Origin: Deltaproteobacteria bacterium
GTDB lineage: Bacteria > Desulfobacterota > Desulfobacteria > Desulfobacterales > B30-G6
Direction: 5' to 3'
Assembly (NCBI GenBank): GCA_022340465.1
Contig: JAJDNW010000009.1
Location: 1-40,059, forward strand
Length of the DNA: 40,059 nt
Part shown: piece after piece, positions 17,646-31,205 of the stretch
Position numbering within the stretch: position 1 is the first letter of the stretch
Layout: each line of letters starts with the position of its first letter
Program-made: the position numbers and the translations under genes
The notes under the pieces: generated by a model
Seen by the model: the letters and a program-made list of their open reading frames with translations, nothing else
The model's database searches: none
What the model was told of the DNA's origin: nothing

Positions 17646-18019
17646 CCGCCGTTTTCATCCTTTCTTTCTGCAAGGGTGGAGCCATGGTGTCTGCGGAACA
17701 TGGTGGCGGAATACTTCTCCAACTTCCACTCCGGAACCCGGCACGCGCCGCACACGCTTTTGAACCACTTGTTCCTGAGCCATCTTGCCGCGCGGCTGTT
17801 TCTGGAATCGTTGACCACAAACGTGCGGTTGCAATGGGTGGTAATCCGGGCCTGGCGGCCCGTCTTCTCGATGGCGCGGATACCGTGCAGCACGCCCTTG
17901 CGGGAAGGCCACAGCTTGATCTTGTCGATCAGCAGAAACAACTCCACACGCTTGCGGTAGAACCGTTTCCGCGGAGTCTTTGTTTTCTTGTTCACCGCCG
18001 CATAATCCCAACCCGGCAA
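17642..18019 (-). CDS. pylSn: Pyrrolysyl-tRNA synthetase N-terminal tRNA-binding protein PylSn
   Basis: Up to 125 residues. It matches the N-terminal tRNAPyl-binding domain of archaeal PylS: LWPSRKGVLHGI corresponds to LWMSRTGTLHKI, FVVNDSRNSRAAR to LVVNNSRSCRTAR, and CGACRVPEWKLEKY to CKRCRVSDEDINNF. In bacteria this domain is a separate protein that binds the T-arm and variable loop of tRNAPyl and helps the PylSc catalytic protein. H45, C90 and C93 correspond to zinc ligands; the second His ligand seems to be Asn or Lys. The start is uncertain (TTG 18019 or GTG 17995; neither has a strong ribosome binding site). It follows pylD, as in Desulfitobacterium, and overlaps the OMP gene by 4 nt. 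Confidence 0.85.
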   Translation of the reverse strand: MPGWDYAAVNKKTKTPRKRFYRKRVELFLLIDKIKLWPSRKGVLHGIRAIEKTGRQARITTHCNRTFVVNDSRNSRAARWLRNKWFKSVCGACRVPEWKLEKYSATMFRRHHGSTLAERKDENGG

Positions 18020-18048: not shown

Positions 18049-18126
18049 TTTGTTCATCGCGTTTGTTGGGTTTATTGAGTTTGTTGAGGTATACCCGTTA
18101 GCCCCATAAATCCAAATAACCCATTA
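18049..18126. repeat. GTTTGTTGGGTTTATTGAG intergenic inverted repeat, copy 1
   Basis: A ~78-bp degenerate repeat between pylD and pylSn. The left arm has 9-nt units of GTTTGTTGG/GTTTATTGA type; the right arm (CCAAATAACCC) is its rough complement; ACCCGTTA lies between. The same layout recurs at 22489-22577 and 26771-26866, all within the pyl/mtb cluster. Confidence 0.65.
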
Positions 18127-18990
18127 ATCCTGCGAACCCGCCAGTCCCTCTTTGTAGCTCAGAGCCGCCGACCCCACGGCCATGGCCGCCACGCCCAGCT
18201 GAAGCGGATCGTGCAGCAACCTGCCGGCGGCCGCCGCCAACGCGCCGTCATCCAGCCCGAGCGGCACGCCCGGGGCTGCAATCAAGGTGCCGCCCGCCAC
18301 GTGCTTCTCTGAAATGAACCCTCCGGCCGGCGAAGCATCCAAAATGTAATCATGGCGATACAGCGCCGCATCCAGGTCCTCCGCAACCCGGATCCGGTCC
18401 CGATGGGTACGCCCGGCTTCCAGGGAGAAATTCCGCGCTTTCAGCGAATCCAAATCCACTACCGTCAGATCGGCCCCCAGGTCCAGCAGGGTCGATGCCG
18501 CCCACCGCCCCACCGGCCCGCAGCCGATCACCAGCACACGCTTACCCCCGATTCCGCCTGCCATCAGGTCCAGGCCGGTGGCGAACACCCTGCCGGTTGC
18601 CGCCGAATTGTCGACAGTCCGGCCCGCTTTCTGGTTGATCGCGGCAAAACAAGCGTCATCGGAAAGCAGGATGATCTGCGCGCGCCGTTCCGCCGCCTCG
18701 CACATCCCGGCGACATCCGATGCCCGGGTGACGAAAGCCCTGAATCCCACATGGGCGACGATCCGCGCGACCGTCTCGGAAAATCCTTCGATAACGCCCA
18801 ATCCCCAGGTGACGGGGATAACCCCCACCGTTGTGCGGCGGGCTGCTTCCCCGAACCTCTTTTCATCAACGGCGTATGCCCGGCAGGCCAGGCCCGCCAA
18901 ATCCGTTCCCGTCATGCGCCTCAGCGCATCGTCATAGACCTCCAACTGGCCGGGAATTCCCCGCAAATCTCCACTGTTGAGCCTGGTCAT
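18124..18990 (-). CDS. pylD: Pyrrolysine biosynthesis dehydrogenase PylD
   Basis: A 288-residue enzyme for the last step of pyrrolysine synthesis: it oxidises the terminal amine of L-lysine-Ne-3R-methyl-D-ornithine to the semialdehyde, which cyclises to the pyrroline ring. The Rossmann NAD-binding motif VLVIGCGPVGRWAAS is visible about residue 155, followed by VVDLD, which binds the ribose. PVTWGLGVIEGFSETV in the N-terminal half is typical of PylD. ATG 18990 overlaps the pylC stop (ATGA); GGGGAGG lies about 11 nt upstream. It ends in TAA. Genes on both sides are pyl genes, which makes the assignment firm. Confidence 0.93.
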   Translation of the reverse strand: MTRLNSGDLRGIPGQLEVYDDALRRMTGTDLAGLACRAYAVDEKRFGEAARRTTVGVIPVTWGLGVIEGFSETVARIVAHVGFRAFVTRASDVAGMCEAAERRAQIILLSDDACFAAINQKAGRTVDNSAATGRVFATGLDLMAGGIGGKRVLVIGCGPVGRWAASTLLDLGADLTVVDLDSLKARNFSLEAGRTHRDRIRVAEDLDAALYRHDYILDASPAGGFISEKHVAGGTLIAAPGVPLGLDDGALAAAAGRLLHDPLQLGVAAMAVGSAALSYKEGLAGSQD

Positions 18991-20129
18991 ATGGGTGCTG
19001 ACCTCCCCGTTAGGCCGAGGCTGTGCCGGATCGCTGCCAACACGCAGTTGCGCCTCTCGACGGCCTTCCGACGGTTTTTTCCGGTAACGATAAGGGTCGC
19101 CACCCAATTGTCCCCACCCGTCCGCCGGTTGGTAAGCGCTTCGTCGGCGCCATAAAATCCTTTTTCCACGTGCAGGGGGCCCGCATGGGTCATAACATGT
19201 TCACCGGCGAACGCAAGCGTGTTTCCGGACACGCGGATGTGTTCGTAGACGACCCCTCGATGATCGCCCCCGGGCAGCTCGCCGGAAACCGTGTCGTCGA
19301 GAAATAGAGCGGCCAGCGCTTCCAGCAGGTTACACCCGGTCGAGTGATAAACGGCCGTCGGCGTCTGGCTCGGAAAACGCGCATCGATTTCCAGGACCCT
19401 CAATTCCCCGTGGTCCTGGACCACCTCGATGTCCATCAGGCCCCTGAGGCCGACGAGACGTGCAATGTCAAGGGAAAGCGCTTGGAACCGGGAGGCCATA
19501 TCTGCCGGCAGCCGGCTGGGCGCGCTCACGGCCCGGCAGTCGAAAATGTCATCCATGAACAGGTCGGTTATCTGAAAGGCACGGTAATTTCCGGGCCCCC
19601 CGGCAACTTCCAATGAATGGGTCGGTCCGTCGACAAAGGCCTGCGCCACCCACTCTCCCTCCGTCCCCCCGAGGAAGGCGTCCAATGCTTCGTGGTCGCT
19701 GAAGATCCGTACGCCCGAACTCCCGCTGGCACGGCTTGGTTTGACGATAACCGGCAGGGTGCAATCCGGCCACGCGGCGGGGGCGGGAATTCCGGATGAC
19801 GCAAACAGGTTGTCCGATTTTATTTTGGACGAGGAAATGGCGTAGGCCTGCATATCGAAGGCCAAGGGGATGCCTGCACGCCGGGCACAGCGTTCGAGCG
19901 CTGCGAGGCCGGCGTCGTTTTCCAGGGCCGGAATCAGAAGGTCGACACCGTTCAGCAGCGCCCGCAGTGCCGTCTCCCGCCTCAAATCCAATTGAACGAA
20001 CCGGTCGCACAACCCTGAAGCCGGAGCATCCGCACGGCGGTCCAGCACCAGCACCTCCCACCCTGCTTTGCGGGCCAGGTAGGCGACTTCGACACCCTGC
20101 AGGTTTCCGCCGGCAACGGCAACTAGCAT
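18987..20129 (-). CDS. pylC: (2R,3R)-3-methylornithyl-N6-lysine ligase PylC
   Basis: A 380-residue ATP-grasp ligase that joins 3-methyl-D-ornithine to the epsilon-amine of lysine. The N-terminal dinucleotide-like fold (VAVAGGNLQGVEVAYLARKAGW), the ATP-grasp loop VKPSRASGSSGVRIF and the metal-binding block VLEIDARFPSQTPTAVY are in order. ATG 20129 lies inside the end of pylB (7-nt overlap, ATGCTAG). The frame is open further upstream but that would overlap pylB deeply. It ends in TGA within the pylD start. It is the middle enzyme of the three-step pathway. Confidence 0.93.
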   Translation of the reverse strand: MLVAVAGGNLQGVEVAYLARKAGWEVLVLDRRADAPASGLCDRFVQLDLRRETALRALLNGVDLLIPALENDAGLAALERCARRAGIPLAFDMQAYAISSSKIKSDNLFASSGIPAPAAWPDCTLPVIVKPSRASGSSGVRIFSDHEALDAFLGGTEGEWVAQAFVDGPTHSLEVAGGPGNYRAFQITDLFMDDIFDCRAVSAPSRLPADMASRFQALSLDIARLVGLRGLMDIEVVQDHGELRVLEIDARFPSQTPTAVYHSTGCNLLEALAALFLDDTVSGELPGGDHRGVVYEHIRVSGNTLAFAGEHVMTHAGPLHVEKGFYGADEALTNRRTGGDNWVATLIVTGKNRRKAVERRNCVLAAIRHSLGLTGRSAPI

Positions 20130-21238
20130 GCAGACCACCTGGGAGAACGGTCTGCCATGACAACCGAACGGCGCTGCTCTATCCAGGCCGTGTACTCTTC
20201 CAGTGTCGCCGCGCGCATCCCGTTTTCCGAGAGAATGCGCTTCACACGCCCCGCGGACCGGTTGCCCTCCTCGATGTCCAGAGAACTCTGGGCCACACCC
20301 GCGAGTCCCTTTCCCGGTGGAACCAGCGACGTAATGACGTTGACGCCGGAATCGAGCCTTTCTCCGAGCCCGGCCAGACCGTCCACATCCAGCGATGCCG
20401 GGATGAGCCGGTCCGGAAACACAAGCCGCATGACGGCGGCCGCCACAAGCTCGCGCAAACGGCTGGATTGCGCTCTGCCTGCCATGGGGGTGCCGCACTG
20501 GGGCACGAAATTCATGATCCGAATCTGGTCGGCCTCCAGCCGGTGCATGGCTTCCATGGAATCGGCGAGATCATTGCCCGATTCACCGACCCCCCCGAGC
20601 AATCCTTCTTCAATCAGCATCCCCAGGGCATGTGCCGCCGCCTTGCCGTTCCAGCGCTCATCGTAGCTCTGCCCCGGTCTCAGGCGTTTGAAGAGTTCGC
20701 GGCTGTGGGTTTCCTGATAGCAGGCATACCAGGTTGCACCGGCTTCGGCGAGCATGTGCAGCACATCCTCCGGGACCACGCCCGGGGAGACCATGACCGG
20801 CAGACCGGTTTCATCCCTTACAGAACGCACGACATCGGCCAGCCAGTCGTAGCCGCCTTTGCCGCTGTTTAAAATTTCGGGGTCTTCGCCCATGGTCAGG
20901 TCGATGAGGTGCACGCCGGTCTGTGACAATGCACGGGCGGCGGAGACGATCTCTCCCGCATCCTTGCGGTAACGAACACATTCCCGGTTCGATTTCCGGT
21001 AGTAGCAGAAATTGCAGTTGTTGCGGCAATAGGTGCTGATGTACAGGAAGCCGTAAAGAAATATTTTCTCCCCGAAATAACGGGCGCGCAATCGGCGTGC
21101 GGAGGCGAACAGGGCCTCGAGGTGCTCCCTGTCCCTCAAGCCCGTCAAGAAACGGATCTCTTCCCCGCCCAGGCCCTCGCCCTTTTCCGCAGATTGCAGG
21201 ACAGCGGCCAGCCGCCTATGTGTCTCTGGTGCAGTCAT
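20123..21238 (-). CDS. pylB: 3-methylornithine synthase PylB (radical SAM)
   Basis: A 371-residue radical-SAM mutase that rearranges lysine to (2R,3R)-3-methylornithine, the first pyrrolysine step. The 4Fe-4S cysteines are C71, C75 and C78 in YCRNNCNFCYYRKSNR, the PylB/BioB-like pattern. LIDLTMGEDP and GLLGGVGESGND follow. ATG 21238 is preferred; the frame stays open to 21574 but that part overlaps pylSc. The stop is an amber TAG at 20123-20125 overlapping the pylC start: the pyrrolysine pathway gene itself ends in the codon its product reinterprets. Readthrough would add about 47 codons to a TGA inside pylC. Confidence 0.93.
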   Translation of the reverse strand: MTAPETHRRLAAVLQSAEKGEGLGGEEIRFLTGLRDREHLEALFASARRLRARYFGEKIFLYGFLYISTYCRNNCNFCYYRKSNRECVRYRKDAGEIVSAARALSQTGVHLIDLTMGEDPEILNSGKGGYDWLADVVRSVRDETGLPVMVSPGVVPEDVLHMLAEAGATWYACYQETHSRELFKRLRPGQSYDERWNGKAAAHALGMLIEEGLLGGVGESGNDLADSMEAMHRLEADQIRIMNFVPQCGTPMAGRAQSSRLRELVAAAVMRLVFPDRLIPASLDVDGLAGLGERLDSGVNVITSLVPPGKGLAGVAQSSLDIEEGNRSAGRVKRILSENGMRAATLEEYTAWIEQRRSVVMADRSPRWSAC

Positions 21239-21326
21239 TATTTCCAAGTTGAACCCATGGGGCGCCGTCTGAAGCCACATGCACTCAGAACGGAATTTCA
21301 CCCCTGCGTAATTTCGGGGCAGGCCG

Positions 21327-22178
21327 TCATATATTGAGGCGCACCCCGTCGAGACAGGTGATGCTTCTTCCCACGCTTCCCAGGTTGCGGCTGCCTTCGA
21401 CGACCATGAGCAGCCGTTCGAGGCCGAATCCGATGCCGACCCAGTTTTCGGATATTCGCCAGGCCTCATCCAACGCATGCGGCCCCATGGCACCGGAACC
21501 CACCTCGACGCCGTCACCGGCAACCACGTCAAGGGTTTCACCGTACACATCCGAGGTTTCCGATTCAAAGGCATAGCCGTCTATCCCGGCGGCCTTCATG
21601 ATGACGGCGGCCAGCTGCTTCAACCGTGCCTGTCTTTCCGTCGCGGGCATACCCATTTCGACCAGGTTCAGCATGGTGAATTCACTGGCATGCCGCGCTC
21701 CCTGCGATTCCTTGCGAAAACAGGGCCCTACCTCGAAAATTCTCACGGGCCGCTCCCAGAGGCGCAACAGGTCTTTCAGCACGAAATAGAGGTGCGGGGC
21801 CAGCATCGGACGCAGGCATTTGGACTTGTCCAGCCAATAGACCTGTGAGCCGAGGTCGTGATTTTCGTCCACCGTCATCCTCGCCAGAAGACCGCGGGAC
21901 ATGATGATCGGCGTTGTCACCTGTACGAATCCCTGAGCGACCATTGCCTCCACCAGACGGCTCTCCAGCTCACAGATGCCGGGTCTGAACTTTTTCGTTC
22001 TCAGATGCTCCAACCGGGCCCGATGGGATTTTACCAGCCGCTTTACCAGTTTCTGAAAAGCCTGGTCGCGCTCGCCTGCCTGGTCGAAGCGGGCATCGAG
22101 TTCCCTGCTTCCGGCGCCAAGCTCCTTGAGCCGGTTTGCCTGAACCGCCGTCCAGCTATGTTGCCTGTCGGAAGCCAA
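21327..22178 (-). CDS. pylSc: Pyrrolysyl-tRNA synthetase catalytic subunit PylSc
   Basis: A 283-residue class II synthetase core that charges tRNAPyl with pyrrolysine. FTMLNLVEMG gives N171 and V173 (positions of N346 and C348 in Methanosarcina mazei PylS), Y212 in VYGETLDV matches the mobile-loop Y384, and W246 with motif 3 (GFGLERLL, 250-257) closes the pocket. CFRKES is motif 2. It lacks the N-terminal tRNA-binding domain, which is encoded separately as pylSn; this split is the bacterial arrangement. The start is TTG 22178 with AGGAAA 12 nt upstream. It lies downstream of pylT across a 513-bp repeat-rich gap and ends in TGA. Confidence 0.93.
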   Translation of the reverse strand: MASDRQHSWTAVQANRLKELGAGSRELDARFDQAGERDQAFQKLVKRLVKSHRARLEHLRTKKFRPGICELESRLVEAMVAQGFVQVTTPIIMSRGLLARMTVDENHDLGSQVYWLDKSKCLRPMLAPHLYFVLKDLLRLWERPVRIFEVGPCFRKESQGARHASEFTMLNLVEMGMPATERQARLKQLAAVIMKAAGIDGYAFESETSDVYGETLDVVAGDGVEVGSGAMGPHALDEAWRISENWVGIGFGLERLLMVVEGSRNLGSVGRSITCLDGVRLNI

Positions 22179-22691: not shown

Positions 22692-22765
22692 TGGCGGGGA
22701 GTCCGGGAGTTGCACCCGGCTGTGCGGGTTTAGAGCCCGCATGATCACATGGCGATCCACCCCCC
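22692..22765 (-). tRNA. pylT: tRNA-Pyl with CUA anticodon (amber suppressor)
   Basis: A 74-nt tRNA with encoded CCA. It folds as: acceptor GGGGGGT with ACTCCCC (one G-U), a single G between acceptor and D stems, 4-bp D stem GATC/GATC with a 7-nt loop lacking GG, 6-bp anticodon stem TGCGGG/CCCGCA with loop CTCTAAA (anticodon CTA), 3-nt variable loop CAG, T stem CCGGG/CCCGG with a loop lacking the usual TTC, discriminator G73. The one-base link, long anticodon stem and tiny variable loop are the hallmarks of tRNAPyl, and the first 12 nt look like the Desulfitobacterium sequence as I remember it. It decodes UAG as pyrrolysine with PylSc and PylSn. Confidence 0.96.
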
Positions 22766-22845
22766 GCAATCATGATGTAACGCGGCTTCCATCTTCGCTC
22801 TTCGAGCTACGCCGAGACAGGCCGCCGCTAATTTCATACAGTTGT

Positions 22846-22874
22846 ATAGTAGCGCTATCCGCCGCAATGATCAA
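22846..22874 (-). promoter_or_regulatory. Possible sigma-70 promoter for pylT
   Basis: On the minus strand TTGATC (22869-22874), 17-bp spacer, TACTAT (22846-22851), each 4 of 6 to consensus. It would start transcription about 74 nt before the tRNA, between mtbB1 and pylT. This is weak and could be chance; if real, pylT and pylScBCD would not depend only on the upstream sigma-54 promoter. Confidence 0.3.
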
Positions 22875-22905
22875 CACCCTTTCTCTTGCCTTTGTGGTTG
22901 GCATA

Positions 22906-24291
22906 CTAAAGCGAAACCGCCTCCTTGAAGCGGTTGACGCAGTTGATATCGATGCCCAGAAGTTCGGCCATGTTGAATTTGGCTTCCATGCATTTCGGGG
23001 TGCCGGCGTGCGGGTGCAGCAGGCCCAGCTTGAGGTCCTCGCGAACCTCCGTCATAATGATCGGATCGGTCAGGTCGGAAACGGACACCTTCAGTTTTTC
23101 GGCAACGTACGCTTTGGCCGCATCTATTTTCATACCGCGGGAAATTTGCATGCGGGCCACCAGATCTCCGGCAGCCCTCATTCCGCCCATTCCCGAGGCG
23201 ATCGCGTGGGTGACCGCCATCCCCATGGGGTCGCCGACGCCAACCTACAATCCGTCCAGCCGGCAGATCTCCACCATGGCCTTGGAGGCACGCGAGGCCA
23301 CGTCCAGGGGCGGATGGTCGTTCACCGTCATACCGCCGACCCCCATTCCCATGTTGACGTGCACCGGTATGTCGGCAGCCTCGCAACAGGCCTTCATGAA
23401 AGTGATCGCCCTGGCCATGTTCCAGGGGGTCGATTCGCTGGTGTTGGTGTTGCAGACCGGTCCGAAAATGGTGACACCGGCCTTTTGCGCCAGCTTTACC
23501 TGCTGGTGGGCATAGAGGCCTGCCAGACGCTCGCCCTCCCAGGTCAATCCGCCGTGCATGCCGAGCACGAATTCTCCGGCCATCCCCAGTTCCACGCAGA
23601 TGCCGGGGTATTTTTCCTTCAGAATGGCCGTGGCCTTCAGGCCGGCCAAAAAATCGGCATCGCCGGCAGCACCCACCGTGTCCAGAATGACGGCGTCGGC
23701 CCCGGCTTCGTGCATGGCGCCGGACACATAAACGATGTCCCTGACCGCATCTTCCACGGCGGCCTCGTACGATTGCATGGCCGCTTCTATTTTGCCCTCG
23801 GGAATGAGTTCCGAGGGGTTGGGAAAAGGGCCGTCGGGCTGACTGTACAACCCGAGGTTGGGCATGGCGCCGTAAAAAACAGGCGCGGTGGTCACCGACA
23901 GCACCTGTTCCATCAGCGGCTGTTCGTACGTGACGATGGGCTTGATGGGCTTGAAGCTGTAGTCCATATGCCCCATCTCCAGCGTATCCGCCCCCAGGAG
24001 CTTTTCATAAATCTGGAGGCACTGCAGCCGGTCTACATTCACCTGGGCGCGCAGCATCTTGATGGGCGACCCGTCATAGGAAAGCACCACTTCCCGGCCG
24101 GGTTCGACGCCGATAAAACGGTGCGGCGAACTGAAGATGTCGAAAAGATGGTCCAGCTCTTCACTGGTCAGGGCCGGGATGTTGCCACGGTCGGCGGCAT
24201 CCTCCGTACCCTCCTCCAGGTCGCGTCTGATATCGTCGGCCGACATCTCCACGGGGGTTCCATCGCCGTAGCGGGTGACTACCTTGCTCAT
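22906..24291 (-). CDS. mtbB: Dimethylamine methyltransferase MtbB1 (pyrrolysine-containing)
   Basis: A 461-residue TIM-barrel methyltransferase that moves a methyl from dimethylamine to a corrinoid protein, leaving monomethylamine. The N-terminal RYGDGTPVEMSADDI, the central MGHMDYSFKPIKPIV, FYGAMPNLGLYSQPDGPFPNP and FGPVCNTNTSES are MtbB hallmarks. An in-frame UAG is codon 349 (23245-23247), in LDGL-O-VGVGDP, exactly where methanogen MtbB has pyrrolysine; homology continues for 112 residues beyond it. ATG 24291 is chosen because GAGGAGG lies just upstream. The gene also ends in UAG (22906-22908); a further in-frame UAG comes 16 codons later and a UGA 7 codons after that. Length equals that of mtbB2. 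Confidence 0.93.
23245..23247 (-). other. Internal UAG codon read as pyrrolysine in mtbB1
   Basis: TTG TAG GTT GGC in frame; homology to MtbB is unbroken on both sides. The residue is expected at the bottom of the barrel, where the pyrroline ring is thought to activate the methylamine. Confidence 0.93.
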
Positions 24292-24301
24292 GGCTTCCTC
24301 C

Positions 24302-24634
24302 TCAGTATACATAACAGCGAAAATCCCTCTTCAGGCCGCTGCCGAGGATGGTCAGCATGATTTCCTCCGTCTCCTGGCGTTTCATTTGAATAACCAGTCG
24401 GTTTTCACCGGTAGCCGGATCCCGGACCACCTCCTGCCTGATGATTTTCTTTTTCAGGCCCGACAGTGCCTCTTGGATGCGGATAAAATCGGCAGGCCCC
24501 TCGAGGCCCAGGCGGTGTTCGATAACCACATAGGAGAAGGAGGGGTCATAGCCGCAGCGCATTTCGCCCGGCACCCGCCCCCCTGCGGTGGTTGCACCCC
24601 CTCTGTGCGGTCTGTTTGCACTAGCTGTCTTCAC
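24302..24634 (-). CDS. Small conserved-looking protein of unknown function between mtbC and mtbB1
   Basis: An ORF of 110 codons (GTG 24634) or 86 codons (ATG 24562, MRCGYDPSF). I do not recognise the family. The last 80 residues read as alternating strands and helices (SYVVIEHRL, FIRIQEALSGLKKKI, NRLVIQMKRQ, EEIMLTIL, RDFRCYVY), which would suit a small ferredoxin-like alpha/beta fold. There are no cysteine clusters, signal peptide or membrane segment. It lies 8 bp after mtbC and ends 10 bp before mtbB1, so it must be co-translated with them. A role in corrinoid-protein handling or methyltransferase assembly is only a guess. Confidence 0.65.
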   Translation of the reverse strand: MKTASANRPHRGGATTAGGRVPGEMRCGYDPSFSYVVIEHRLGLEGPADFIRIQEALSGLKKKIIRQEVVRDPATGENRLVIQMKRQETEEIMLTILGSGLKRDFRCYVY

Positions 24635-24642
24635 GGGGCCGA

Positions 24643-25284
24643 CTAACCGATCAACCCCTTGATTTTTATCACCGAATCCTGTGCATCCTCCGCATAGGCA
24701 TCCGCGCCGATCTTAGCCGCCCAGCGAGCGGTGACCGGTGCACCGCCGACAATGGTCTTGAACTTGTCACGCAGGCCCTCTTTTTTCAATTTCTGCTCGA
24801 GATCCTTTTGATGCCCCATTGTGGTCGTCAGCAGGGTGCTGGTTCCAATGACGTCGGCTTCGACCCTGACGGCTTCTTCGATGAATTTTTCGGTGTCCGC
24901 GTCACGGCCGATATCGTGCACGATCATGCCGTTGGCGCGGAGAAGGGCCACGACAATGCCCTTTCCGATGTCATGGATATCGCCCTTCACGGTGCCGATG
25001 ACGACAACGCCCGGCTTTTCAGTCTGTTTCTCGGGAAGGGCTTCGTTGACCAGGTCCGTAACGGTTTTCATCACATCGGCCGACTGAACCAGGCCCGGCA
25101 GAAACAGCAGCCCGCGGCCGAACTGGTCACCGACTTCGCCGATTCCCGGAATGAACCCCTCGGTCATGATCGCCATGGGGTCGTTGCCCGTGTCGATCCA
25201 ATTTTTAGTAATTGCGACGGCCTTGGCCTCGTCGTGATCCACGATCGCTTTAATTGCCTCCTTGATAGTCTGCTCGTCTACCAT
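24643..25284 (-). CDS. mtbC: Methylamine corrinoid protein MtbC/MttC
   Basis: A 213-residue corrinoid protein that carries the methyl group on cobalt between MttB/MtbB and the receiving methyltransferase. Residues 1-85 form the methionine-synthase-like cap, residues ~90-213 the B12-binding Rossmann domain. The cobalt-ligating His is H104 in GDIHDIGKGIV, followed by STLLTTTM and VGGAPV. ATG 25284 follows AGAGGAGA; the frame is open to 25467 without support. It stops at amber TAG (24643-24645) with a TGA three codons later. As the only corrinoid protein in the cluster it probably serves both MttB and the two MtbB proteins. Confidence 0.93.
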   Translation of the reverse strand: MVDEQTIKEAIKAIVDHDEAKAVAITKNWIDTGNDPMAIMTEGFIPGIGEVGDQFGRGLLFLPGLVQSADVMKTVTDLVNEALPEKQTEKPGVVVIGTVKGDIHDIGKGIVVALLRANGMIVHDIGRDADTEKFIEEAVRVEADVIGTSTLLTTTMGHQKDLEQKLKKEGLRDKFKTIVGGAPVTARWAAKIGADAYAEDAQDSVIKIKGLIG

Positions 25285-25370: not shown

Positions 25371-26756
25371 TCACACCCCCGTGCGGTTTTTGAAACGCTC
25401 GACGCATTGGATGTCGATATCCAGGACCTCGGCCATGCGGAACTTGGCCTCGATTCCCTTGGCGCACCCCGGCAGCGGCATGATCTTGCCGATCTGAAGA
25501 TCGTCCCGGATCTCCGTCATGATCACCGGATCGGTCAATTCGGCAACGGAAATCTTCAGCTTGTCCGCCACGTACGCTTTGGCGTCCGCGATCCGCATTC
25601 CCCGGGCCATCTGCACGCGGGCCACCAGATCTCCGGCCGCCCGCATTCCGCCCATTCCGGATGCATGCGCATGCGTCAACGCCATCCCCAGGGGGTCGCC
25701 CACGCCAACCTACAACCCGTCCAGGCGGCAGATTTCCACCATGGCCTTGGAGGCGCGCGAAACCACGTCAACCGGTGGGTGGTCGTTGACGGTAACGGCT
25801 CCGACCCCCATCCCCATGTTCACATGCACGGGAATGGCGGCCGCTTCACAGCAGGCTTTCATGAAGGTGGTGGCACGGGCCAGGTTCCACGGGCTGCTCT
25901 CGGAGGTGTTGGTGTTCACCACGGGTCCGAATATGGTCACACCGGCTTTCTCGGCCAGTTTGACCTGTTCGTGGGGGTACAAGCCGGCGAGACGTACGCC
26001 CCCCCACTCCATCTCCCCATGCATACCCAATATGAATTCCCCGGCCATGCCCACTTCGATGCACATGTCGGGAAACTCCTCCTTCAGTATGGCGGCGGCC
26101 TTCAGGCTGGCTTTGAAATCCGCCTCCCCGGCGGCTCCCACCGTGTCCAGATTGATGCCGTCCGCCCCGGAAGCGTACATGGCTCTGGCAGCATAGACAA
26201 TATCCTTGACCGCCTCGTCGACGGTGGCGTCATAAGAGGCCCGGGCCCCTTCTATATCGCCCATGGGCATCAGTTCCGACGGGTTGGGGAAAGGACCGTC
26301 CGGCTGCGTGTAGGTGCCGAGATTGGGCATGGCCCCGTAGAAAAGCGGTATGTGCGTCGACAGCAGGGCCTGTTCCAGGATGGGCTGCTCCATGGTCACG
26401 ATCGGCTTGATGGGTTTGAAACTGTAGTCCACATGACACAGTTCCATGGTGTCGGCCCCCATGATTTTTTCGTAGATCTGCAGCGCCTGGATACGGTCGA
26501 CATTGACGCCCACACGCCTGATTTTCAGCGTCCCGGCGTCGTAAGTGAGGACCACCTCATTGCCCGGTTCCACGCTCACGAAACTGTAAGGCAGGCTGAA
26601 AATCTCGAAAAGGTGATCGATCTCCTCCTTGGAAAGGGTTGGGATGTTGCCCCTTTCGGCAGCGTCCTGAGAACCCGCTTCGAGATCGCCCATGAGCTCG
26701 CCGGCGCTCATGGTCAGGGGCGTACCGTCTCCGTAACGGGTCATAATTTTTTTCAT
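25371..26756 (-). CDS. mtbB: Dimethylamine methyltransferase MtbB2 (pyrrolysine-containing)
   Basis: A 461-residue paralogue of the other MtbB, the same length, with its UAG at the same codon (349; 25710-25712) in LDGL-O-VGVGDP. The MtbB blocks LCHVDYSFKPIKPIV, FYGAMPNLGTYTQPDGPFPNP and FGPVVNTNTSES are intact, and by eye the two C-terminal regions are about two-thirds identical. ATG 26756 is chosen because GGAGGAGG lies 5 nt upstream; the longer frame to 26810 is translated repeat (NPTNATNPINA). It ends in TGA. It sits 86 bp upstream of mtbC. Possibly it differs from MtbB1 in substrate range or affinity. Confidence 0.93.
25710..25712 (-). other. Internal UAG codon read as pyrrolysine in mtbB2
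   Basis: TTG TAG GTT GGC, the same local context and codon number as in mtbB1; protein homology continues through it for 112 codons. Confidence 0.93.
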
Positions 26757-26970: not shown

Positions 26971-27768
26971 CTATAAGTCTAGCTTATTGGCCCGGTAGGC
27001 CGTCAGGTACTGCATGCAGAAATCATCCCTGCCGGCCAGGGCATTGGCGGCCACGATGTTGCCCATCATCTTCTTGTCCAAAGGATTGATGATCGCCCCG
27101 TCGAGCCCTTTGGCGATGGCCATGCTCATGAAGGTTTGGTTCAAAAAGGGCCGGTTGGGCAGTCCGAAAGATATGTTTGACAGGCCGCAAACCGTGTGGA
27201 TGCCCTTGAAGGTCTCCACGATCTTTTCGATGGCATTCATGAATTCCACGCCGAAGCGGTTGTTGGTGGACACCGGTTGCACCAGGGGGTCCACGTATAT
27301 GTTCTCGACCGGCACGTTGTTCTGCAGCAGGCCGTTTACCAGTTTGTCGGCAATGGCCATGCGGTCGTCGGTGGTTTCCGGCATGCCGTCGTCACTCATG
27401 CACAGGGCCACCACCTTGAGGTCGGTACCGGCGACGATGGGCAACAGGGCGTCGTAACGGTCCTTCTCGAGAGATATGGAATTGATCATGGCAACTCCCT
27501 TGTGCGCGGCCAGTGCGGTTTCTATCGCCTTGGGATCCGGGCTGTCGATGCAGCACGGCCCGTCCACGACTTCCTGCACCGTCGAGACCAGCCATTTCAG
27601 ATATTCGGGCTCCTGCCCCACGAACACACCGGCGTTGACATCGATGTAGTCGGCACCGGCCTCATGCTGGTCAATGGCGATTTTTTGAATGCCGGCGGCA
27701 TCATGAGCCTCGATAGCCGCTTTGATTGCCTTTCTGCTTGCATTGATGAGCTCCCCCACGATTAACAT
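26971..27768 (-). CDS. mtgA: Methyl-corrinoid:tetrahydrofolate methyltransferase (MtgA/AcsE-like)
   Basis: A 265-residue TIM-barrel enzyme of the pterin-binding (dihydropteroate synthase-like) family. GELINASRKAIKAAI at the N-terminus, GADYIDVNAGVF, then IDSPDP, and CGLSNISFGLPNRP are AcsE/MtgA hallmarks. In bacterial methylamine and glycine betaine systems this protein takes the methyl group from the corrinoid protein to tetrahydrofolate, replacing the coenzyme M branch of methanogens. ATG 27768 follows AAAGGAGAGAG; the frame to 27837 is unsupported. It ends in amber TAG (26971-26973). It lies between mttB and mtbB2, so it is very probably the methyl acceptor step of this pathway. Confidence 0.9.
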   Translation of the reverse strand: MLIVGELINASRKAIKAAIEAHDAAGIQKIAIDQHEAGADYIDVNAGVFVGQEPEYLKWLVSTVQEVVDGPCCIDSPDPKAIETALAAHKGVAMINSISLEKDRYDALLPIVAGTDLKVVALCMSDDGMPETTDDRMAIADKLVNGLLQNNVPVENIYVDPLVQPVSTNNRFGVEFMNAIEKIVETFKGIHTVCGLSNISFGLPNRPFLNQTFMSMAIAKGLDGAIINPLDKKMMGNIVAANALAGRDDFCMQYLTAYRANKLDL

Positions 27769-27930: not shown

Positions 27931-29403
27931 TCACTTCATGACCCCCAGTTCGGCCTCGGTTTCCTCGACGATGGACCGTATGGTTTCCTGAACGCCGTCC
28001 GGCAAGGGGTCGGGCTCGTGATTTTCAAGGATGAATTTAGCCTCAGCCAGTGACCGTTGGTAGATGTCGGTGCTGCCGGCGGCGACCCAGTCCTCGCGCA
28101 TGGTGCGATCGATCATCTTGGGCTGGGACTGGCTGCGCATGTGACGATAGGTGCTTTCGTGGCTGAGAAAATCTTTTCCCACCCCGATTTCCCTGATCAC
28201 ATCAACCGCCAGGGTTTCATCATTCACCGGAACCCCCTGCACCGCATGCTTGATCATGCGGGCAAACTCGTTGTCCATGACAAGCTGTCCGAAATCGATG
28301 GTCATGCCCATTTCGATCATCCCCAGGCCATAGATCAGGTTGGCACCTGCCAACGCCGGCAAAAGGCCCGTGAGTGTGGTTTCGTGACCGGCTTGGGCAT
28401 CACATACCTTGCTGTCGCCCTACCCGCCGGCAACCCAGCTTGGCAGCAGGTAGTAGGTGGCCATCTGAGCCACGGCGGCGTTGATGACCGCGCACTCCGG
28501 GCTTCCCACGGTGGCGGCCGCCAACCGCAGGTCCATGGCGGTGGTGGAGCTGCCGTAAATCACCTTGGCGCCTTTGCTGGTCAGCTGGCTCAACACGACG
28601 CCCCCCAACACCTCGGCATTGTGGTCCACCAGCGTTCCGGCCAGGGTCACCGGTGAAGACCCTCCGGCCATGGCCATGGAAAGAACGTTGACCGCCATGC
28701 CCGAACGGGCGCCCTCCATGATGATCTCACACGTCTCCGGGACCAGCTTCAGCGGACTCACCGGGCAGGTAATAAAAGAAACGATCGGTCTTTCGAGCAG
28801 GTTGTCCATGCCGCCGGCGATAGCCGCCGCCATGTCGGTTATTTTACGCATGAGATAGGCGTTTCCGGGCCCCATGAATCCATGCTTGGAGGTGTTGGGC
28901 AACCAGGCCTCGGCGTTGTGCAACTGTACGGTTTCCATGGGGACATCCGAGGCGCCTACGGCACGTTCGTACACATCCACGTCGCTCAGGTAGTCGCATA
29001 TTTTGGCTGAATTGGCCACGTCCGCCTTGGTTGTCTCGCGGTGCTCCCCGGTGTAGGGATCGATAATGAACACCCCCTCGCCGAAGTTCGTGAATCCGAC
29101 CCGGTTGCCTTCCATGATGAAATCGTTCTTGGGGTTGCGTCCGGCGAGAAACAGTTTCGAGGGCGCGGATCGGATGGCATCTTCCACGATGAAGGGCGGG
29201 ATCTTCACGATTCTCTTTTGTTTGTCCACCCTGGCGCCGGATCCGTGGAAAATCTCCAGGGCCTCGTCGTTGTCGATCAGAAGTCCGGTTTGTTCCAGCA
29301 CTTCAAGGGTGGCAAAATGAATGTCGTCCAATTCCTCCCGGGTAAAAACATTGAGGCTCAGTCCACCGCTTTGCCTTTTCCCGGCGTGCAGATTTCTTCT
29401 CAC
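27931..29403 (-). CDS. mttB: Trimethylamine methyltransferase MttB (pyrrolysine-containing)
   Basis: A 490-residue trimethylamine:corrinoid methyltransferase, close to the usual ~495. The in-frame UAG is codon 328 (28420-28422), in PSWVAGG-O-GDSKV, where methanogen MttB has pyrrolysine; [25 protein letters not shown] follows on as in the family and the C-terminal 162 residues are intact. [11 protein letters not shown] and [10 protein letters not shown] are typical of the first part. Start is GTG 29403, overlapping the stop of the preceding mttB-like gene (GTGA), with GGAGGTG 5 nt upstream. It ends in TGA. It should produce dimethylamine for the MtbB enzymes. Confidence 0.94.
28420..28422 (-). 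other. Internal UAG codon read as pyrrolysine in mttB
   Basis: GGC GGG TAG GGC GAC in frame at the conserved MttB pyrrolysine position. Treating it as a stop would leave a 327-residue and a 143-residue fragment that together make one full-length MttB. Confidence 0.93.
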
Positions 29404-30836
29404 TGGTTCACCTCCATTTCTGCGATGATGGATTTCATCCTTGCAGCCGCCCCGTCGGGCAGCGGCAAGGGTCGATGGGTTTCCAGGATCTCTCTTGCCT
29501 TTTCATAGGCCCTTTCCGTCACGCTGCGGCCGCCGGCGTTCTCCTCCCAGGCGTCACGGCTGGAGCGGTCGAACAGGCCGCCTGCGGACATACCGCGCAT
29601 GTGCCGCATGGTATGCGCATGTGTCAAAAACTCGCCGGCCGGGCCGACGTCTGTGATCACATCCAGGGCCAGCGCTTCCGGGGAGACGTCCAGGCCTCTC
29701 GCCGCCAGGTCGAGCTTTTTGATGTACTCCGCATCCATGACAAGCTTCGCATAGTCGAAGGTCAGCCCATACTCGATGCCTCCACAGCTGAAAAGAATGT
29801 TGGCTCCGGACAGTCTTGCCAGGGAGGTGTTGAGGACAAATTCATAGGCGGCTTGGGCATCGGGGATTTTGCTGCCCGTAATACCGGCGCCGCACCAGCT
29901 GGGAACGTCGTAGTACTGCGCCAGCCTTGCCGTGGCAGCGGTCAGCAGGCCGTTTTCCGGGGCGCCCATGGCGGGATTTCCGGTTTTCAAATCCATGATG
30001 GTGGCACAGCTGCCGTATATGAAGGGCGTGTGTTTCCGGACGAGTTGGGCAAGCGTCAGCGCACTTAAGAGCTCCGCGTTCTGTACGGCCAGGGTTCCCG
30101 CCAGGGTGGTCGGAGCCGTGATGCCGCTCAGCGGCATGGTTACACAACAGAGCCCGACCCCGCAGCGGGCCGCCTCGATGATGACCTCACAACACTGCTT
30201 CACCAGGGTCAGCGGGCTGGTGGGGCAGACCACGCACGTAACGCAGGGGCGTTTTTGGAAGGCGGCCATGCCACCGGAGCAGGCCGCTGCCATTTCTACG
30301 ATTTTTCTGGTGTTTTCTGCACTGAAAAAGCCGTGCAGGACATGCTTTCCCGTATTGGTGACCATGGCTTCATAGTTGTGCAGCGACTGGGTGTGGGCGG
30401 GTTTTTCATGCGACCCCATGCATTTTTCTACGATGGCGATCTCATCCAGGGCATCGGCCACCCGGGTGGCCTGCCCGAGATCCTTTTTTGTGCAGGCCCT
30501 GAGCGTCAGTGTATAAGGGTCGATAATCCTGACGTTCTCTCCGAAGAGGGTGAAACACGAAAACCCCTTCTCCAGGACGACGTCATGCCCGGGGTCTCTG
30601 CCGTACAGGGTGATCTTTCCCGGTGCCAGGCGTACGCACTCCTCCATAAGATGCGCCGGGATCTTCACCCTGAATCCATCGCCGTCCTTTTCCGTATGGG
30701 CACCGTACCCCTGATAGATCTCGGCCGCCTCTTGCGACGCCACCCTGACGCCGGTTTTCTCCAGAATCGCTACGGTGGCCTCGTGAATCAGATCGATATC
30801 CGCGTCCGCAAACCCGCTTAAACTTAAATTGGCCAT
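29400..30836 (-). CDS. MttB-superfamily methyltransferase without pyrrolysine
   Basis: A 478-residue member of the MttB superfamily, continuous with no internal UAG. At the pyrrolysine position it has Ile319 (PSWCGAG-I-TGSKI), so it belongs with non-Pyl members such as MtgB, which demethylate quaternary amines (glycine betaine, carnitine, proline betaine). Its substrate is not determined. ATG 30836 (MANLSLSGF) is chosen: the longer frame to 31124 runs through the sigma-54 promoter and has no family similarity. It is the first gene of the operon and overlaps mttB by 4 nt (GTGA). It could feed trimethylamine-like substrates in, or share MtbC. Confidence 0.9.
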   Translation of the reverse strand: MANLSLSGFADADIDLIHEATVAILEKTGVRVASQEAAEIYQGYGAHTEKDGDGFRVKIPAHLMEECVRLAPGKITLYGRDPGHDVVLEKGFSCFTLFGENVRIIDPYTLTLRACTKKDLGQATRVADALDEIAIVEKCMGSHEKPAHTQSLHNYEAMVTNTGKHVLHGFFSAENTRKIVEMAAACSGGMAAFQKRPCVTCVVCPTSPLTLVKQCCEVIIEAARCGVGLCCVTMPLSGITAPTTLAGTLAVQNAELLSALTLAQLVRKHTPFIYGSCATIMDLKTGNPAMGAPENGLLTAATARLAQYYDVPSWCGAGITGSKIPDAQAAYEFVLNTSLARLSGANILFSCGGIEYGLTFDYAKLVMDAEYIKKLDLAARGLDVSPEALALDVITDVGPAGEFLTHAHTMRHMRGMSAGGLFDRSSRDAWEENAGGRSVTERAYEKAREILETHRPLPLPDGAAARMKSIIAEMEVNQ

Positions 30837-30902
30837 GGCGCCCCTTTCGCCGTTCCAACGGTGTATATCATCGCATGAGACATGTAATTTCGATAATTTT
30901 TC

Positions 30903-30918
30903 TGCAAAAGTCGAGCCA
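30903..30918 (-). promoter_or_regulatory. Sigma-54 (-24/-12) promoter of the mttB-mtb-pyl operon
   Basis: On the minus strand TGGCTCG-N4-TTGCA matches the RpoN consensus TGGCACG-N4-TTGCW at all but one constrained position, with correct GG-N10-GC spacing. Transcription would start near 30892, about 55 nt before the ATG at 30836. A sigma-54 activator gene lies 290 bp upstream, which supports the call. Confidence 0.75.
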
Positions 30919-31205
30919 CAGCCGCCTGCATATTTTTTTTGTATGATTTCAATTGGATATGTCATCCATTCATGCAAGGGCGCCTCGCTTCGATTCAAAA
31001 GTGGATCACATCCGGCGCACAGGAACCGGCCGGTCGGCACGATGTTGATACCGGTCCGCTTGCTATAGTGTTTATAAGAATAACGTTCCGTATGCCCTAA
31101 GCGGGTGGCGGATTTATTTTTCAAAGAATCATATTAAACCAAGGCATACCCTGTGACCGCCGGATTGTTGATGAAACGCTGAAGCCCGTCTGATTCAATA
31201 ATGAA
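30919..31205. promoter_or_regulatory. Candidate upstream activator region
   Basis: The 287 bp between the sigma-54 promoter and the activator gene hold no gene. Inverted repeats that could bind the activator are GTATGCC (31090-31096) with GGCATAC (31143-31149), and the palindrome ACCGGCCGGT near 31023-31032 followed by another ACCGGT about 20 bp on. Their distance (100-250 bp) suits enhancer sites. Which one is used cannot be told. Confidence 0.4.

Follow-up and report, generated by a model that had tools for sequence, protein, structure and literature searches.

How does a ribosome read UAG as pyrrolysine (Pyl) at one point of a message and stop at the same codon further along? The gene mtbB1 raises this question in a window of 40,059 nucleotides (the whole stretch of DNA analysed here) from a bacterium of the order Desulfobacterales. 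In texts on the subject, of which parts were available, the way in which Pyl organisms with UAG as a common stop spare those stops is described as unknown (PMC9723677, PMC9499178). mtbB1 poses the problem in its sharpest form, since both readings fall within one frame. The explanation that we favour, with a probability of roughly two in three, is that UAG is ambiguous in these cells, codon 349 being read as Pyl and codon 462 serving as a release factor 1 (RF1) stop, and that a hairpin behind the sense UAGs favours Pyl or rescues the message.

The mtbB1 frame and its neighbourhood

mtbB1 (22909–24291, on the minus strand like all features of the window described below) comprises 461 codons and encodes a dimethylamine methyltransferase. 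It starts at ATG 24289–24291, with a purine-rich GGAGGA stretch upstream, and its product is a full-length match to the NCBIfam family TIGR02368, dimeth_PyL (497.2 bits for a cut-off of 369.1, residues 5–457). Codon 349 (23245–23247) is a UAG in frame, placed at the active-site position that the family conserves; in alignment, 123 further distinct mtbB genes have their sense UAG there. The presence of Pyl in the protein at this codon is predicted from the UAG and the pyl genes. The terminal UAG is codon 462 (22906–22908), followed after 16 codons by a third in-frame TAG, codon 479 (22855–22857), and then by the TGA that closes the frame, codon 486 (22834–22836). The would-be extension (22834–22905) thus consists of 16 codons, a UAG, six codons and UGA. 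On the sense UAG, the terminal UAG, the third UAG and the closing UGA the original prediction was exact, as it was in noting that the paralogue mtbB2 (25371–26756), also of 461 codons, has TGA at the matching end. mtbB2 carries its Pyl UAG at 25710–25712 and matches TIGR02368 with 535 bits (cut-off 369).

The gene for tRNA-Pyl (CUA), pylT (22692–22765), lies 140 nt behind the terminal UAG of mtbB1 and is also found behind mtbB1 in two other genomes of the same genus, G002 and G003. The window further includes pylSc (21327–22178; TIGR02367, 323.7 bits), open reading frames (ORFs) with pylB (20123–21574; TIGR03910, 485 bits), pylC (18987–20498; TIGR03909, 400.6 bits) and pylD (18124–19107; TIGR03911, 229.7 bits), and pylSn (17687–17953; TIGR03912, 129.6 bits). 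As all of these lie on the minus strand, a full pyrrolysine cassette is present within the window. On the other side of mtbB1 are genes for an mtbC-like corrinoid protein (24643–25284) and a methyltetrahydrofolate:corrinoid methyltransferase (26971–27768). Both end in UAG (24643–24645 and 26971–26973, respectively) without containing an inner UAG, so that their stops would also meet Pyl-tRNA. Beyond them are mttB (27931–29403; Pyl UAG 28420–28422, terminal UGA; TIGR02369, 773 bits) and a non-Pyl MttB paralogue (29400–31124). An ORF of 110 codons (24302–24634), with neither a Pfam match above cut-off nor an NCBIfam match, lies in the space separating mtbC from mtbB1, and its stop is some 10 nt ahead of the mtbB1 ATG.

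The terminal UAG as a stop

As judged from the sequence comparisons that follow, it is very probable that codon 462 is a true stop, ended by RF1, and that codon 349 is read as Pyl. RF1 is encoded (TIGR00019, 529 bits, in a frame without inner stop) and UAG is a common stop in this genome: in a sample of 413 kb, TAG ends 53 of 243 ORFs (22%). This count covers ORFs of at least 200 amino acids (247 in total, four of which end at Pyl codons and were set aside), delimited by a simple longest-ORF rule, so that some may be non-genes. A similar count for the ORFs flanking mtbB loci, after removal of 101 that were pieces of Pyl genes, gave 54 of 248. Ten of the 57 TAG-ended ORFs of the genome sample, drawn from the 14 longest, were compared with protein families. 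For IOR alpha, RecJ, a DppA-like protein and HutH the family match extends to within 1–12 residues of the TAG stop; for the remaining six, matches were absent, partial or looser, two of them being without family.

The five mtbB genes found in the genome all have an inner UAG. Since the other four end in TGA, TGA, TAA and TGA, a terminal TAG in one of five corresponds to chance expectation. The same is seen on a wider scale. Searches covered 389 genomes, with at most four candidates scored in most of them, and 80 of 379 relatives were kept for the sample. Among 125 distinct mtbB (124 with a sense UAG plus L008, the G002 orthologue), the terminal stops are TAA in 59, TGA in 39 and TAG in 27. This census left out frames with fewer than 105 codons behind the Pyl codon (L049, L060, L067 and L106, the last ending in TAG) and two loci that gave no motif (L028 and L105). 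Both uses of UAG thus occur in 26 of 124 sense-UAG mtbB and in 15 of 79 Pyl mttB, so that one mRNA with both meanings is common and mtbB1 is not a singular case. Pyl mtmB was seen three times in the 389 genomes, and two of these genes (L265 and L266) end in UAG. In the cultured species Desulfocicer vacuolatum and Desulforhopalus singaporensis, the Pyl mtbB of this set have TAA or TGA as their stop. In a phylogeny of 105 mtbB the ends switch at least 16 times between TAG and non-TAG, and the eight-row clade that holds mtbB1 ends in TAG four times, TGA three times and TAA once. We also considered a conserved terminal UAG ahead of pylT and rejected it: the nine mtbB with tRNA-Pyl within 1.5 kb downstream (one tRNA being on the other strand) end in TAG three times, TGA once and TAA five times. 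Taken together, the census and the relatives indicate that the terminal UAG of mtbB1 matches the background in frequency, is freely exchanged with other stops and is followed by no conserved extension.

Organisms with Pyl are known to use UAG as stop and as Pyl codon in one genome, as is the case here; what differs is that both meanings fall in one frame, together with the census of 124 mtbB and 79 mttB. No comparable count of dual-UAG genes was found in the literature on ambiguous decoding, as far as its accessible parts go. Those parts do record that pylB ends in TAG in some Methanosarcinales (PMC2933860) and that 21% of genes end in UAG in Sifarchaeia, a situation likened to that of Pyl bacteria and in which UAG discrimination is called unknown (PMC9723677). 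One gene with both uses of UAG is a plain outcome of such known ambiguous decoding.

That the terminal TAG might be a sequencing or assembly error is worth raising in a draft genome of 162 contigs, but is highly improbable. L008, a 90% identical orthologue from the same genus, has TAG at the same terminal codon, which makes a base error there unlikely, and L035 and L037, in the clade of mtbB1, likewise end in TAG. L008 itself (G002:C365) has TCG at the Pyl site and several odd replacements at otherwise conserved neighbouring positions, and may be a copy in decay or the product of misassembly.

Equally improbable is that the second UAG is also sense and that MtbB1 has a functional Pyl-containing C-terminal extension, even though the frame is open for 16 codons, a UAG and six more codons up to UGA and the same tRNA is available. 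The extensions of the 27 TAG-ended mtbB share neither sequence nor length outside a few near relatives. L007, the 90% identical gene of G003, has GCA TGA at the mtbB1 stop site and so stops one codon later, mtbB2 has UGA at the same place, and the sequences downstream of the stop are unrelated among mtbB1, L008 and L007. A functional readthrough is recognised by a conserved extension behind a leaky stop, and mtbB1 has none. Moreover, the stop column is common to the relatives that end in UGA or UAA, which speaks against a terminal UAG that is simply sense.

The terminal UAG is probably slightly leaky all the same. With abundant Pyl-tRNA some ribosomes would pass codon 462, adding Pyl and 16 residues up to the second UAG and, beyond it, six residues up to UGA, and low-level C-terminal variants of MtbB1 containing Pyl are possible. 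It is unlikely that the leak is large enough to have selected for backup stops, which have been suggested for archaea (PMC9499178, in an excerpt citing Zhang 2005). In a first, smaller sample of mtbB, TAA or TGA followed in frame within 10 codons in 14 of 22 TAG-ended genes and in 35 of 83 others (p 0.06), but with the sample enlarged the hint was lost (15 of 27 TAG-ended genes, 42 of 98 others; p 0.17). In the organism's own genome backup stops are fewer behind TAG (12 of 57 TAG-ended ORFs, 4 of the 57 ending at Pyl codons, against 58 of 189). There is thus no firm trace of selection against leak at the terminal UAGs of mtbB.

In two loci, L094 and L181, the start codon of mtbC lies in frame six codons past the terminal UAG of mtbB. 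Pyl readthrough would there join the methyltransferase to the corrinoid protein, and the arrangement could serve as a natural readthrough reporter. As a programmed fusion it was rejected, being at chance level (two of six near cases with TAG, five of 21 with other stops).

The base following UAG was also examined as a discriminator between sense and stop. It is T in 11, C in six, G in five and A in five of the 27 terminal UAGs of mtbB, and G in 101, A in 22 and C in two at the Pyl site. The latter is largely set by the next residue, which is mostly Val or Ile, and the base has no diagnostic value.

The hairpin behind the sense UAGs

PYLIS_2 (Rfam RF02509) matches the sense UAG of mtbB1 (23148–23247; 89.2 bits, gathering threshold 36) and that of mtbB2 (68.5 bits), and PYLIS_3 (RF02510) that of mttB (75 bits). 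At the terminal UAG of mtbB1 there was no PYLIS match up to E 5. Folding of the single sequences compared with shuffles gave z values of −2.09 and −1.07 behind sense UAGs and −0.39 behind the terminal UAG of mtbB1, where the RNA is no better folded than shuffled sequence. Silent sites were examined, since a covariance match can mirror protein conservation alone.

In 94 non-redundant mtbB we scored base pairing between all variable third codon positions 2–40 codons apart (12,765 pairs) against a null obtained by exchanging the third base only between sequences that share the amino acid and resemble each other in GC3. The three highest of the 12,765 pairs are codons 23–30, 24–29 and 25–28 behind Pyl (z 7.4, 5.7 and 5.4; the next pair reaches 4.1). 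They are nested, consecutive silent rungs of a single hairpin, 69–92 nt past the Pyl UAG, and the rungs between them are mostly fixed by the protein. Pair 24–29 is seen as UG, UA, AU, CG, GC and GU. A fourth silent rung, 22–31, is weak (rank 56, z 2.9), and position 72–91 is mostly an A-C mismatch, being paired in 32 of 115 sequences. All 94 genes have GGA as the Gly codon of the loop; at the median fourfold site, by comparison, the commonest base reaches 43%. In mtbB1 the hairpin occupies 23150–23181, +66 to +97 nt from the U of the sense UAG, with its core at +73 to +90 and the loop AGAU at 23164–23167; the homologous place in mtbB2 is 25615–25646.

The signal persists whether 1, 3, 6 or 10 GC3 bins are used, and also when the set is cut to 58 strictly non-redundant rows. 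It is strong in the 70 rows from Desulfo- and deltaproteobacterial groups and weak in the 24 rows from other phyla (z 3.0, 0.8 and 3.6), which nevertheless do carry the loop and most rungs. Covariation was also scored by a separate method in 36 sequences (34 of 46 eligible loci and the two mtbB of the window): the score is 0.266, slid partners give 0.033–0.067, and no shuffle out of 500 came as high. Pairs with changes on both sides number four in these 36 sequences, which is not beyond shuffles (170 of 500). Of 16 windows scanned along the gene, only those at 0 and +17 codons have a conserved alifold structure that clearly surpasses a null of permuted codons, and both hold the hairpin. A window at −68 codons from Pyl has a mean folding energy below the null (z −4.2) without conserved alifold structure.

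The loop motif separates the two kinds of UAG. It lies within 110 nt of the Pyl site in 125 of 125 mtbB and within 150 nt of the terminal UAG in one of 27, where it is apparently a ribosome site.

A comparable structure is present in mttB. The mttB and mtbB enzymes are not known to be related, and the proteins match different NCBIfam families with no cross-match. Among 70 Pyl mttB and 5,434 pairs, (22,27), (18,31) and (23,26) rank first, second and fourth (z 7.8, 7.0 and 5.1). Their common index sum of 49 makes them nested, and the third-ranked pair, (18,27), shares codons with them. This set came from a loosened search motif, as the earlier one skipped many genes, and the test was unchanged; scans of 23 and 30 mttB rows gave no strong signal, and 10 of 40 mttB stretches gave no readable Pyl frame. 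The stem has six base pairs, (G/A)UUGGC and GCCAA(C/U) around a loop AGGN, and spans +68 to +83 from the Pyl UAG (28339–28354 in the window).

The mttB stem is tied to the UAG rather than to the peptide. All six pairs form in 53 of 66 Pyl genes and in one of 26 non-Pyl paralogues of the same order, which encode a like peptide without the stem. These 26 are the non-Pyl MttB that fit the motif, without near-duplicates, nine of them being drawn from 20 added stretches; in the non-Pyl paralogue of the window three of the six pairs form at the homologous codons. When only genes with the exact peptide ALAGAN are compared, the figures are 49 of 59 Pyl and none of eight non-Pyl genes (Fisher p 7e-6, relatedness being ignored). 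Codon permutation in Pyl mttB, which likewise ignores relatedness, gave a mean of 33.5 six-paired rows and a maximum of 41 in 2000 draws, against 53 observed.

As these comparisons show at the level of sequence, a hairpin kept by selection at silent sites lies about +66 to +97 nt from the sense UAGs, both in mtbB and in mttB. In the two families the loop opens with an A at a silent site, which is found in 115 of 115 mtbB and, as GCA, in 67 of 75 mttB. Both loops can be written as a tetraloop A-G-purine-N, at +80 to +83 in mtbB and +74 to +77 in mttB, and a shared binding motif is possible.

In mtbB the selected hairpin corresponds to the distal stem of PYLIS_2, whose matches begin at the sense UAGs of mtbB1 and mtbB2; this stem is conserved by covariation, and the evidence strengthens what is a predicted Rfam element. 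The innermost silent pair, 25–28, is unpaired in the Rfam structure line and paired in 94 of 94 mtbB here. The UAG-proximal stem of PYLIS_2, for its part, is without support from silent-site covariation in mtbB: seven of its 11 pairs form in 73–94 of 94 rows but are mostly protein-fixed, and its silent-silent pairs form in 33 and 62 of 94 and fall outside the top 15 of 12,765. The PYLIS_3 match begins at the mttB sense UAG, but the positions of the mttB hairpin are unpaired in the Rfam structure line. Have and colleagues, in an excerpt, reported no common structure in mttB (PMC3639795), and we found no earlier description of the mttB hairpin or of its tie to UAG in the literature searched, which included few subscription papers.

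How the two readings may be kept apart

Something must favour Pyl at codon 349 of mtbB1. In the mechanism that we propose, Pyl-tRNA and RF1 would compete at this codon and the hairpin would tip the contest towards Pyl; alternatively it would act in message rescue or protection once ribosomes have stopped at codon 349. Terminal UAGs would remain stops, having no hairpin behind them. We regard this part of the reading, in which a hairpin of the PYLIS kind either tips the balance between RF1 and Pyl-tRNA or rescues the message, as evenly poised between true and false.

The hairpin resembles the bacterial SECIS, likewise a coding-region hairpin behind a recoded stop. The SECIS adjoins the UGA and is bound by SelB; the mtbB and mttB hairpins differ in being more than 60 nt from the codon and in having no known partner. 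At such a distance a hairpin is beyond the reach of a ribosome with UAG in its A site, so that a direct effect on decoding would need a bound factor, unless the hairpin acts after the event. A more specific version, which we hold tentatively, is that sense UAGs are marked in both families by A-G-purine tetraloop hairpins some 70–90 nt on, and that a trans-acting factor there recruits Pyl-tRNA or blocks RF1, keeping stops as stops.

An alternative is an even contest of RF1 with Pyl-tRNA at all UAGs, in which Pyl is made only with methylamines and decoding is influenced by no cis signal. The hairpin would then have another role, for instance in stabilising the mRNA or in limiting polarity from stops at codon 349. 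In the portions available, reviews hold that a cis element is neither required nor known for Pyl (PMC8211752, PMC9499178), that in Acetohalobium the Pyl reading of UAG is confined to growth on trimethylamine (PMC8211752) and that bacteria rely on regulation rather than codon avoidance (PMC3941956). Part of the work on Methanosarcina points in a similar direction, an introduced amber codon in a reporter being read at 20–30% and the PYLIS of mtmB being dispensable or replaceable, although the amount of full-length product dropped (PMC2933860). The distance of the hairpin from the codon and the lack of avoidance of UAG stops fit as well. However, the hairpin tracks the UAG, being nearly absent from non-Pyl MttB even with the same peptide, and it lies at a like distance in mtbB and mttB, for which bare competition gives no reason. 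Overall, we consider uniform competition possible but somewhat doubtful, and prefer a role for the hairpin. As to the suggestion in the original prediction that local context or competition with the release factor discriminates between the two UAGs, local context is supported by a selected hairpin that follows the sense UAG, was not found behind the terminal UAGs of mtbB apart from one apparent ribosome site, and may be what favours Pyl; the following base provides no rule.

With rare exceptions, neither the terminal UAGs of mtbB nor the MttB genes without UAG have the hairpin. Being a short, portable sequence that can be mutated or transplanted, it makes the question of discrimination directly testable, and it might aid amber suppression in engineered systems. 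If the proposal is true, this mark would be how cells in which about one fifth of genes end in UAG keep their stops as stops.
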